DNA of 64,000 bases from positions 1,364,001 through 1,428,000 of the forward strand of contig NZ_CP099546.1 of NCBI RefSeq assembly GCF_023973145.1, written 5' to 3'. The stretch is from Natronosalvus vescus (GTDB taxonomy: Archaea > Halobacteriota > Halobacteria > Halobacteriales > Natrialbaceae). Each line of letters starts with the position of its first letter. Positions within the stretch are counted from its first letter, which is position 1. The position numbers and the translations under genes are program-made. The notes under the pieces were generated by a model. That model was not told where the DNA came from. It did no database searches and saw nothing but the letters and a program-made list of their open reading frames with translations. This document shows positions 59,326 to 64,000 of the stretch, piece by piece.

Positions 59326-59871
59326 TCAGTGCGTGGCCTGCTCGAGGACGAGCGTTTCGTCCTCGAGATAGTGCTCGAAGTGGTGAGCGTCGTCTTCGAC
59401 CTCGAAGAGGATCTCCCGGAGCATGTGAGCGGTCGCGTGATCGCCGAGGTTCGTTGCGAGTTCGATGCTGTCGCGCATCGATTCGATGATGTCGCCGTAC
59501 ATCTCGAGGTCGTTTTCCATCATCGTCCGGAGGTCGTAGACGTCCTCGCCCTCGAACTCGACGGTCGCGCGTTGCTCGAGGTTCGTCGGGCCCGATACCG
59601 GGACGCCACCGAGTGCCTGGGCACGCTCGGCGATCAGGTCAGCGCCTTCCTCGGCGTGTTCGTAGGCCTCTTCGAAGAACAGGTGCAGGTCGCGGAACTC
59701 TGCACCTTCGACGACCCAGTGGTGTTTCTTGAGCTGGTGGTACAGGACGTACGCGTTCGCGAGTTCGGAATTGAGCGCGTCGACGATCTGTTCGGCCTTC
59801 TCCTGCTCGAGTCGTAGGGCGTTCTCCTCGACGGTATCGGCCTGCTGGCGGACGGTCTTTTGAGTACTCAT
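59326..59871 (-). CDS. dpsA: DNA protection protein, ferritin-like Dps
   Basis: 181 residues, four-helix bundle. The ferroxidase site residues are in YHQLKKHHWVVEGAEFRDLHLFFEEAYEHAEEGADLIAERA, with His and Glu/Asp ligands between subunits. It matches halophilic DpsA in length and in the N-terminal QQADTVEENALRLEQEKAEQIV. Twelve subunits form a shell that oxidises and stores iron and shields DNA. Expression in haloarchaea rises with iron and oxidative stress. The promoter is AT-rich with a candidate TTTAAGGG TATA box about 30 bases upstream. Confidence 0.92.
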   Translation of the reverse strand: MSTQKTVRQQADTVEENALRLEQEKAEQIVDALNSELANAYVLYHQLKKHHWVVEGAEFRDLHLFFEEAYEHAEEGADLIAERAQALGGVPVSGPTNLEQRATVEFEGEDVYDLRTMMENDLEMYGDIIESMRDSIELATNLGDHATAHMLREILFEVEDDAHHFEHYLEDETLVLEQATH

Positions 59872-60113: not shown

Positions 60114-61085
60114 ATGAACCAGTCCGTGCTCGTAGCCGGCGAAACGCTCGTCGACTTTCTTCCCGACCGGCCGGGGCCGCTCTCGTCGGTATCAGGGTTC
60201 GAACGGCGGGCCGGTGGAGCACCGGCAAACGTCGCCGTCGCCCTCTCGCGTCTCGAGCATCCACCGGCGTACTGGACCCGGGTCGGCGACGATCCATTTG
60301 GTCACTACCTTACTGGAGTACTCGCAGAACACGGGATCACAGATCGGTTCGTCGAAATCGATCCGGACGCCCAGACGACCCTCGCGTTCGTCACCCACGA
60401 CGAGTCTGGGGATAGAACGTTCTCGTTCTACCGCGACGATACGGCCGACACGCGTCTCGAACCGGGCACTATCGACGAGTCGACGCTCGAGGAACTCGAG
60501 TGGGTGCACGCCGGCGGCGTCACCCTCTCGAGCGGCCGATCGCGAGCGGCCACGTTCGACTTGCTCGAGCGGGCCGCTGCCCGGGGCTGTACGGTGTCGT
60601 TCGATCCCAACTTCAGACCGGAACTGTGGGCCGACGAAGCGACCTTCAGGCGGGTCGGCCGCGAAGCGCTCGCCCACACGGACGTCTGCAAGGCAACCGT
60701 CGAGGAACTCGAGGCCCTCGGCTGTACCGGCGCGACACCCACGGCTGTCGCTCGAGACGCACTCGAACTCGGGCCACACACCGTCTTTCTCACTTGCGGA
60801 AGCGAGGGAGCGATGGTCGTCACCGATGATGACGAGCGAGCACTCGAACCCGACCTCGTCCTCGAGCATCCCGGCTTCGACGTCGACGTAGTCGACACCA
60901 CTGGTGCCGGTGACGCCTTCGTCGCCGGTCTCATCGACTCGCTCCGCGGGGGCCGCAGTCTCCAGAAAACGCTCGCGTTCGCCAGCGCGGTTGCCGCCCA
61001 GGCGACGACCGAACCGGGGGCGATGACGGCGCTGCCGATTCGAGCAACTGCTGCAGCGTTCCTGGAGTCGGTTGACGAGAGCTGA
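60114..61085 (+). CDS. PfkB family carbohydrate kinase (fructokinase-like)
   Basis: 323 residues. It begins VLVAGETLVDFLPD, then RAGGAPANVAVALSRL (substrate signature), and ends in the catalytic VDTTGAGDAFVAGLIDSL. NFRPELW and CKATVEELEALG resemble fructokinases and ketohexokinases rather than ribokinases. It phosphorylates a sugar with ATP. A fructose role is favoured but not shown. It is divergent from dpsA, about 240 bases away. Confidence 0.85.
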   Translation: MNQSVLVAGETLVDFLPDRPGPLSSVSGFERRAGGAPANVAVALSRLEHPPAYWTRVGDDPFGHYLTGVLAEHGITDRFVEIDPDAQTTLAFVTHDESGDRTFSFYRDDTADTRLEPGTIDESTLEELEWVHAGGVTLSSGRSRAATFDLLERAAARGCTVSFDPNFRPELWADEATFRRVGREALAHTDVCKATVEELEALGCTGATPTAVARDALELGPHTVFLTCGSEGAMVVTDDDERALEPDLVLEHPGFDVDVVDTTGAGDAFVAGLIDSLRGGRSLQKTLAFASAVAAQATTEPGAMTALPIRATAAAFLESVDES

Positions 61086-61601: not shown

Positions 61602-61689
61602 TCGCTGCTGGCCGCGGAGTCGCGTTCCGACCATCTGATCGGGGTGCCCTACCGCTACCTTTTCATCATTGCGTGAGAATACCACGCCA

Positions 61690-62166
61690 ATGCATCCGCG
61701 CGCAGCGACGTTCGTCGCACAGGCTCGAGAGGAGTACGGCTTCGATCCCTCGGTGACGGAGTTTCCGGAAGGAACGAAGACCGCCGCCGATGCGGCCGAC
61801 GCCATCGGCTGTGCGGAGGCCCAGATCGCGAGTTCGCTCGCGTTCGACGCCGACGGCGACCTGATCGTCACGATCACGAGTGGTGCCAATCACGTCGACG
61901 AAGCGGCCCTCGCCGACCAACTCGAGGTGTCTCCGGAGGACGTCGAGATGGCCGACCCCGACCGGATCAAATCCCGACTCGGCTGGGCCATCGGCGGCGT
62001 GCCTCCAATTTGTCACGACCTCCCCGTGCCGACGCTGCTGGATGAGACGTTGCTCGAATACGAGACGGTCTGGGCTGCCGCCGGGACGCCGTCTGCGGTG
62101 TTCCCGATCGATCCGGTGGAACTCGAACGGCTGACGAACGCTGACGTCGTTTCCGTCGTCGAGTGA
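61690..62166 (+). CDS. YbaK/aminoacyl-tRNA deacylase family protein
   Basis: 158 residues of the YbaK/EbsC fold. It contains GTKTAADAADAIGCAEAQIASSLAF, the conserved Lys-Thr and Cys-area of the family, ITSGANHVDEAALADQL, and GWAIGGVPPICHD (GxxPP-like). Members remove wrong amino acids such as Ala or Cys from tRNA. The tRNA target is not evident. ATG 61690 fits the family start. Confidence 0.85.
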   Translation: MHPRAATFVAQAREEYGFDPSVTEFPEGTKTAADAADAIGCAEAQIASSLAFDADGDLIVTITSGANHVDEAALADQLEVSPEDVEMADPDRIKSRLGWAIGGVPPICHDLPVPTLLDETLLEYETVWAAAGTPSAVFPIDPVELERLTNADVVSVVE

Positions 62167-62395
62167 TTTGACCTCTGCTCGACCTTCTGAACTTGTAGCG
62201 GGCATGCGTGCGTGTCCAGTCTTGCCCTTCAGCGTTTCTTGATCCACGTTGTCTGAGTCGCGCTATGCCGGTGCGTAAGTCTCGAGCGAGCTCTCCAGGC
62301 GGCTTACCGTGCAGATGAAATAGGATACACAACACCGTTAACAAAACCAACACCTTAATTAGTAACTACACATAACTCGCTGGTAGAGTCTAATA

Positions 62396-63118
62396 ATGAG
62401 TGCTGACGAACCCACACTATCGCGTCGCAGATTGCTGATCACGTCCGGTTCACTCGGGGCATTCGCCCTCGCCGGTTGTCTGGGCGGGGACGATGACGAC
62501 GGGTCAGATGCCGATGACAGCAACGACGACCAGAGCGGTGGTAACGGTGGGGATGACGATACTAACGATACTGACGATACGGACACCCACGACGGCCATG
62601 ACGATGGCCACGACGTCGATGCGGAGCCGTTCGATCACATCGGCATTGGGTCGTTCAGTCTCCTCGATCGGTCACACGATCCGGCCGAAGAAGCGGCCTG
62701 GGTACACGACGATCACTGGGACGGGAACCTTCCACAGATTCCCGTCGACGAGTCGATTTCCCTCGGCGCGGTTATCGAGGACGACGATGGCGAGCCGATC
62801 GAACTCGGCGATGCGTACGAACTCCGTGCAGCCCTCGCCCACGACGCGCCTGACGGAGTCGTTTCGTTCGAATCTCACGGCGACCACGTGTCAATCGCCG
62901 GCGAGACGGTAGGTGTCACCGACGTCGTCTTCCAGATTTGGCACGACGATCATGCGGATTACCAGTCCCCCGAGATTACGGCACAGGTGGTCGAGGAAGT
63001 CGATGAGGACGGTCACGACCACGACGACCACGACGACCACGACCACGACCACGACGACCACGACGACCACGACGACCACGACCACGACGACCACGACCAC
63101 GACGACCACGACCACTGA
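62396..63118 (+). CDS. Tat lipoprotein with metal-binding domain and His/Asp repeat tail
   Basis: 240 residues. A Tat signal (SRRRLLITSGSLGAF) ends in a lipobox Cys (LAGCLGG), followed by an acidic linker rich in His. Residues about 78-205 form a compact domain: GIGSFSLLDRSHDPAEEAAWVHDDHWDGNLPQIP and FQIWHDDHADYQ. The last 37 residues consist of HD, HDD and HDHD repeats. The Zn/Ni-binding capacity must be large. The domain is shared with the ZnuA-type protein downstream (HVDHWDGGLPDVPLEG), so it probably collects zinc outside the cell for that importer. Confidence 0.75.
   Translation: MSADEPTLSRRRLLITSGSLGAFALAGCLGGDDDDGSDADDSNDDQSGGNGGDDDTNDTDDTDTHDGHDDGHDVDAEPFDHIGIGSFSLLDRSHDPAEEAAWVHDDHWDGNLPQIPVDESISLGAVIEDDDGEPIELGDAYELRAALAHDAPDGVVSFESHGDHVSIAGETVGVTDVVFQIWHDDHADYQSPEITAQVVEEVDEDGHDHDDHDDHDHDHDDHDDHDDHDHDDHDHDDHDH
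63007..63117 (+). repeat. GACCAC codon repeat encoding the His/Asp tail
   Basis: About 110 bases of GACCAC and GACGACCAC units at the 3' end of the lipoprotein gene. It translates to His-Asp repeats on the plus strand, giving an all-Val frame on the minus strand. Such tracts change length by slippage, so the number of units may vary between strains. Confidence 0.9.
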
Positions 63119-63348
63119 ACGATTCCCGTTCCCCGCTGACGTGTTTGGTCTCGAGGTGCGTTTTCCAAAATTCGATTTTCACGTCTCAAACCGCTCGAGC
63201 ACGCCGTCTAGGACGCGTCCGCATATCGTACCCCGGTCTCGTCAGGTGACTGGCGGCTAGTATCGAAAAGGGTGCTGACCGGTGCTGTTTAATAACTTGG
63301 GGAAGGGGAATAATAACTCTTTTATCAATGAGGCGATTGTCTGACTGT

Positions 63349-64000
63349 ATGAAGCTGACACGCCGAACTGCGTTACGCCGCGGTGGGGCGGCGGTCGCGC
63401 TCGGTGCACTCGCGGGCTGTCTCAGCGAGCCTGGCGACGATACCGAGAATGGCAGTGGCAATGAAAGTGGCGAGAACGCGATCTCCGGCTACGCCGCCTT
63501 CTTCGCACTCTGGGACTGGAGCAATCAAATCGTCGGCGACCACGGCGCATTCGAGAACCCCGTTGACGTAGGCGAGATGGGACACGGCTGGAACCCTGGT
63601 GGAGATCTCACTCGGGACGTAGCTGAAACGGATGCGTTCGTGTACCTGGATACGCCCGAATTCTCGTGGGCACAGGATCTCGCCGCTCAACTCGAGGCGG
63701 AAGAGGAGTCTGTCGACAGTACCGTCATCGACGGAATGGCCGGGTTGACGGCAGATCAATTACTCCCATTTTCAACGGGTGAGCGTCCGGATCCTGACGA
63801 AGAGTACACGGTCGACCCGTCGAACGTCCAGGTCGACGGGTTCGATATCATCGATCCGCGGACGGGTGAGACGGTCGCCTACTGGCACGTCGATCACTGG
63901 GACGGTGGCTTACCGGACGTCCCGCTCGAGGGATCGATGAGATTCGAAGCAGTCGTCGAGGTCGACGGCGGACACGTCATTCCACTCGGTGGGGACGAGG
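63349..64000 (+). CDS. znuA: Zinc/metal ABC transporter solute-binding lipoprotein (ZnuA-type), partial
   Basis: At least 217 residues; the gene runs past the window end. A Tat-like signal (RRTALRRGGAAVALGAL) is followed by a lipobox Cys (LAGCLSEP). The next part is ZnuA-like: YAAFFALWDWSNQIVGDHGAFENPVDVGEMGHGWNPGGDL, with His ligands at GDHG and MGHGW, then DAFVYLDTPEFSW. An insertion then begins (FDIIDPRTGETVAYWHVDHWDGGLPDVP). It matches the domain of the preceding lipoprotein. TTTTAT about 27 bases upstream favours ATG 63349; ATG 63328 is in frame. Confidence 0.8.
   Translation, partial: MKLTRRTALRRGGAAVALGALAGCLSEPGDDTENGSGNESGENAISGYAAFFALWDWSNQIVGDHGAFENPVDVGEMGHGWNPGGDLTRDVAETDAFVYLDTPEFSWAQDLAAQLEAEEESVDSTVIDGMAGLTADQLLPFSTGERPDPDEEYTVDPSNVQVDGFDIIDPRTGETVAYWHVDHWDGGLPDVPLEGSMRFEAVVEVDGGHVIPLGGDE

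Follow-up and report, generated by a model that had tools for sequence, protein, structure and literature searches.

Why would a His/Asp-rich lipoprotein and the zinc-binding protein encoded downstream of it carry the same stretch of sequence? The question is raised by the end of a 64,000-nucleotide stretch of the Natronosalvus vescus genome (contig NZ_CP099546.1, positions 1,364,001 to 1,428,000, forward strand; hereafter the window). A preliminary description, made from the sequence alone, had seen an HWDG-type motif and its surroundings in both proteins and had proposed a new zinc-delivery module, in which zinc collected by the lipoprotein is delivered to the importer. We followed up this proposal by computational analysis of the genes, of the shared region and of their relatives.

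Gene organization of the locus

The genes concerned and the main features of the lipoprotein are as follows.
61669 to 62166, plus strand: YbaK-type aminoacyl-tRNA editing gene (PF04073), a syntenic neighbour
62396 to 63118, plus strand: Tat-type His/Asp-rich lipoprotein of 240 aa (ORF with an SRRR...LAGC lipobox)
62420 to 62479, plus strand: twin-arginine signal and lipobox cysteine of the lipoprotein, residues 9-28 (read from the sequence)
63014 to 63115, plus strand: C-terminal His/Asp tail of the lipoprotein, residues 207-240, with 14 His (read from the sequence)
63328 to 64000, plus strand, on to genome position 1428767: znuA-type substrate-binding lipoprotein (PF01297)

The lipoprotein gene and the downstream znuA had been placed correctly in the preliminary description, and genome sequence beyond the window completes znuA, whose stop codon lies 767 bases past the window end. 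Counted from the first ATG (63328), ZnuA has 479 aa; the true start is probably the in-frame ATG at 63349. The gene is directly followed by znuC (1428768-1429571, PF00005 ATPase) and, after a gap of 2 bp, by znuB (1429574-1430626, PF00950 ABC-3 permease), which are the two partners that had been expected past the window end. ZnuA scores 148.1 bits against PF01297 (curated cut-off 29), as a member of cluster A-I of the binding proteins does, and is the sole PF01297 protein encoded in the 3.84-Mb single contig. Candidate metal ligands His, His, His and Glu fall in GHGW, DPHVW, GHDSF and PFE, in line with AdcA, and the first and third ligand His are invariant across 54 alignment rows.

The twin-arginine/lipobox pattern of the lipoprotein is common to nearly all its homologues; 38 stand-alone relatives were compared. 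Tested against the equivalog model of the His-rich protein ZrgA (NF047873), the lipoprotein reached 26.4 bits for a cut-off of 185, and only its His-rich C-terminal stretch aligned. The best reading of the sequence is that of a putative Tat-exported, membrane-anchored accessory protein of the ZnuABC importer.

The YbaK-type gene and a PfkB-type sugar kinase gene (60114-61085) are kept beside the znu cluster in many haloarchaea; a YbaK-type gene was found near it at 23 of the 68 loci whose neighbourhoods we read. Further upstream, on the minus strand, positions 59326-59871 encode what was judged by eye to be a Dps/ferritin-like protein.

A domain common to the lipoprotein and ZnuA

The similarity between the two proteins extends far beyond the motif, with 41% identity over 106 aa in a BLASTP comparison of the pair (E=2e-18) and a domain match of E=3e-14 in a genome-wide search. 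A likeness confined to the short motif, which the preliminary description had named as a refuting outcome, is therefore not what we found. An iterated profile built on relatives set the borders of a domain of about 120 residues, the whole of which is common to both proteins.
62642 to 62998, plus strand: domain in the lipoprotein, residues 83-201, with the motifs HDDHWDGNLPQIP, SHGDH and WHDDHADY (profile match)
63829 to 64000, plus strand, on to window-equivalent position 64191: domain inserted in ZnuA, residues 168-288 (BLASTP and profile)

The host genome has no further copy. Searches of Pfam, NCBIfam and PDB with the domain profile returned no family, the few matches being weak and scattered. 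AlphaFold2 predicts an all-beta sandwich for the lipoprotein copy (mean pLDDT 94.3). Foldseek, run with this model, gave weak Ig-like matches only (S-layer, Rib, filamin), none of them with E<0.001.

In an alignment of 61 diverse members, one Trp is invariant and the His of HxxHW are near-invariant. The HxxHW pair is present in all 51 lipoprotein copies and all 59 ZnuA copies, as expected for a functional site, and is missing from some short copies of the domain. The other His pairs are mainly a lipoprotein feature: the HGDH pair occurs in 96-98% of the lipoprotein copies versus about 35% of those in type-1 ZnuA (ZnuA1), and the HDDH pair in about 75% versus 30% and 0%. Hence, the lipoprotein copy looks the metal-richer of the two from its sequence, and the ZnuA copies, from which the other two His pairs have largely disappeared, may bind metal poorly.

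Position of the domain in ZnuA

The PF01297 match of ZnuA is split in two pieces (residues 56-166, the N-lobe, and 279-448, the C-lobe), and the domain separates them, immediately before the DPHVW ligand motif. In the model of the full protein (pLDDT 90.7), the fold is predicted to resemble those of AdcA, AdcAII and AztC, and the sandwich stands apart as an insertion. Haloarchaeal ZnuA proteins without the domain have a classical His-rich loop, a mark of zinc-type binding proteins, at the same place. In the host ZnuA, the linkers hold one His outside the domain, and the domain fills the place of the loop. The insertion seen in the preliminary description is thus real, with the correction that the domain replaces the usual His-rich loop or sits within it.

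The presence of the lipoprotein seems to be linked to the state of this loop. In the genus of the host, the ZnuA linkers hold 1, 1, 1 and 2 His in the four species that have the lipoprotein, versus 10, 14 and 15 in the three species that have the domain in ZnuA only; in the latter three, znuA closely follows a YbaK-type gene, and no gene for a lipoprotein separates the two. Over all loci, none of 37 ZnuA proteins with a companion has a loop rich in His (8 or more), versus 18 of 36 without one; G086 and G149, with few His and no companion, are exceptions. On the tree, only one or two of six independent pairs differ, all as expected, so that the trade-off is not significant (p about 0.5). Given the small number of independent cases, the contrast within the genus is only suggestive.

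A different domain (HACGHM...GYVTFEGEPGTYAFF) was observed inside a long His-rich ZnuA loop at L219 (positions 340-1968), L238 and L239 (G136, G246). By eye, both the L105 lipoprotein and the 760-950-aa proteins described below have a similar HACxH repeat. The ZnuA loop seems to serve as a common insertion point for domains of this sort.

Distribution and neighbourhoods

The domain is present in 51 of 292 sampled haloarchaeal genomes, of which 241 encode ZnuA. At the 68 loci read, four classes of protein carry it. The first comprises His-rich lipoproteins with one or two copies, encoded immediately before znuA-znuC-znuB, an arrangement found at most lipoprotein loci, in dozens of haloarchaea. 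The domain is also inserted in 50 type-1 and 9 type-2 ZnuA proteins, and it occurs in proteins of 760-950 aa, encoded in some loci next to znuA, and in lipoproteins of about 150 aa.

The large proteins (L063, L068, L072, L076, L083) are exported and combine one or two domain copies with HACxH repeats; those of L068, L076 and L083 adjoin znuA. Four of them, scanned against Pfam, gave no match above cut-off.

In a quick tree built on few columns, the domains of ZnuA1 group in a single clade (SH-aLRT 98) that excludes those of the lipoproteins, which implies that the insertion is old and that the lipoprotein is no recent copy of its own ZnuA. Descent of the lipoprotein from the ZnuA of its own genome was considered and is unsupported by this tree.

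Outside the haloarchaea, the domain was found in three genomes, all of one other archaeal family. In two of them (L233, L237; G386, G329), the gene for a tandem-domain protein immediately precedes that for CbiM within a cobalamin-synthesis cluster; at one of these loci, CbiQ and CbiO also lie within the stretch read. Since these relatives adjoin a cobalt importer, the domain appears to be a companion of metal importers more broadly. The zinc-delivery module proposed at the outset is supported in part, by the shared domain, the adjacency of znuC and znuB, the conserved arrangement and the common operator described below; strict zinc specificity of the domain does not hold.

In the same non-haloarchaeal family, domain proteins at L234 and L236 are encoded near formate-dehydrogenase-like (molybdopterin oxidoreductase) genes, the L234 protein having an uncharacterised N-terminal part. 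One scan of genome contigs gave matches from archaea only, and a tblastn search of a plasmid collection gave no convincing relative.

A common operator

Both genes are preceded by the same two-box element.
62337 to 62366, plus strand: operator before the lipoprotein gene, GTTAACAAA-N12-ATTAGTAAC, 29 bp from the start codon (exact pattern match)
63288 to 63317, plus strand: operator before znuA, TTTAATAAC-N12-AATAATAAC, 31 bp from the ATG at 63349 (exact pattern match)

The pattern, KTTANYAA-N14-WTANTAAC, describes two 9-bp boxes 21 bp apart. Its only exact matches in the 3.84-Mb genome are these two, and the reversed control pattern has none. With up to two mismatches, it is found before lipoprotein genes in 33 of 38 cases and before znuA1 genes in 34 of 50, versus about 0.6% of shuffled upstream DNA, counts that are partly circular because the pattern was derived from the same sequences. 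Independent support comes from its genome-wide rarity and from its occurrence before genes outside its definition set.

The operator was also found before znuA genes without the domain (among others in G215, G194, G108, G222 and G138, and at L220-L223) and before COG0523 GTPase genes at no fewer than 11 of the 20 sites read, with PF02492 confirmed for one. The haloarchaeal COG0523/CobW GTPase genes with the znuA operator were recorded at L204, L205, L207-L213, L214, L216 and L217. COG0523 genes and znuABC together make up the classical Zur regulon, the targets of zinc starvation. On this sequence pattern, an operator that znuA has in common with COG0523 genes would define a candidate haloarchaeal zinc regulon of the Zur type. 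The COG0523-type genes of the host itself were checked and do not carry the operator, and two sites with one mismatch (L227, L228) have no obvious zinc gene downstream. Archaea have been reported to be without a recognisable Zur; for Methanosarcina, a related regulon under a DtxR-like regulator has been predicted (PMC2770081).

Comparison with known zinc-transfer systems

The closest precedent is the AztD-AztC pair of Paracoccus denitrificans. AztD hands zinc to its binding protein AztC, which needs its D-loop (residues 117-133, before the ligand H138) and the three His of that loop to accept it (PMC7463823). As in the present case, an accessory zinc protein is encoded beside a cluster A-I binding protein, and the transfer loop sits just before the ligand, where the ZnuA domain lies. 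However, AztD is a beta-propeller, while the lipoprotein domain is predicted to be a beta-sandwich, and AztC, which has a short three-His loop, shares no domain with AztD, whereas the lipoprotein and ZnuA have one in common. AztD was absent from the 50 best structure matches to the domain model.

In streptococci, likewise, the His-rich surface proteins Pht are made with a zinc-binding protein, and transfer from PhtD to AdcAII has been demonstrated by NMR (PMC3842936). Unlike the pair described here, Pht proteins are built of HxxHxH repeats with another fold and have no domain in common with AdcAII; a profile search of the PDB with the domain matched no Pht chain. Zinc-collecting domains that stand on ZnuA, or work with it, are known from AdcA (ZnuA plus ZinT) and from the ZinT-ZnuA pair. 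In AdcA, ZinT is C-terminal, whereas the sandwich of the present ZnuA is unrelated to ZinT and separates the two lobes. ZrgA resembles the lipoprotein as a His-rich accessory protein for zinc uptake, the sequence match being confined to the His-rich C-terminal stretch. ZepA, an exported zinc-uptake protein of cyanobacteria and others, has an Ig-like sandwich domain with an H-x(2-9)-H-F/Y-H motif, and its authors found no archaeal homologue (PMC10957091). From the published description, this motif resembles HxxHW(H/D) of the present domain; ZepA has a second domain, B, which the present domain is without.

Hence, an accessory zinc protein working with a binding protein is already known; an uncatalogued domain common to the proposed donor and acceptor is new. 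Of the papers listed on haloarchaeal zinc uptake, none apparently covers the lipoprotein or the domain, and our searches found no archaeal donor protein for ZnuA.

Discussion

We lean, with some reserve, towards a model in which a zinc-capture lipoprotein supplies ZnuA by way of a new metal-handling domain, of which each protein has its own copy, both genes being co-induced under zinc shortage. We infer that the two proteins bind metal, that they dock and pass it on directly, and that zinc regulates their genes. The lipoprotein would be exported by the Tat route and anchored in the membrane, where its His/Asp tail and His-rich sandwich domain would collect zinc outside the cell. It would then dock on the related domain of ZnuA, which would stand in for the His-rich loop beside the second ligand (DPHVW), and pass its zinc to ZnuA, so that ZnuB and ZnuC could bring the metal into the cell. 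The common two-box operator would turn on both genes when zinc is short. We prefer transfer mainly because the domain occupies the place of the AztC D-loop.

The lipoprotein might instead be a zinc buffer or store that releases its metal near ZnuA without contact, the shared domain being a mere common building block. Such His/Asp tails are weak binders of many ions, the lipoprotein tail has 14 His, and the trade-off with the ZnuA His loop would fit a reservoir. We nevertheless regard this as unlikely, for it gives no account of why 59 ZnuA proteins keep the domain in place of the loop, with HxxHW invariant. It is improbable, too, that the domain, like the Ig-like sandwiches of S-layer proteins, serves only in docking or at the cell surface and has no role in metal handling, leaving zinc to the His-rich stretches. 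The best fold and profile matches, all weak, do include S-layer and other Ig-like domains, and the His pair is missing from some short copies; against this, the pair is invariant in the lipoproteins and in ZnuA, and relatives of the domain cluster with metal importers.

As for the metal itself, manganese and iron carriers are found among cluster A-I binding proteins, and related domains adjoin CbiM, CbiQ and CbiO. Yet the ZnuA site is read as His, His, His, Glu, two zinc proteins, AdcA and AdcAII, are among the nearest relatives of solved structure, and COG0523 genes carry the same operator; a system for another metal, manganese or cobalt, is thus quite improbable. There is only a slim chance that the ZnuA domain is a gate or sensor that regulates loading, with a lipoprotein that competes for or reports zinc and guards against excess. 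A regulatory role has been proposed for the His-rich loop of ZnuA, to go by the title of Wei et al. 2007 as cited in PMC7463823, but an operator common to uptake and zinc-sparing genes leads one to expect expression under shortage, not excess.

Direct transfer from the lipoprotein to ZnuA may also be part of something wider, which we put forward tentatively as a possibility. A mobile Ig-like metal-handling domain would have entered free lipoproteins and the chaperone-docking loop of ZnuA, perhaps in two lineages independently. Donor and acceptor would recognise each other, or relay metal, through homologous domains. The family would also serve cobalt importers, and an archaeal zinc regulon would run the whole.

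Archaeal zinc uptake has been little studied, and the domain, uncatalogued in Pfam, NCBIfam and PDB, is present in about one sixth of the haloarchaeal genomes sampled. The operator offers a handle on the haloarchaeal zinc regulator. If the proposed mechanism is true, a donor and an acceptor with the same domain would represent a new way of passing metal from protein to protein.
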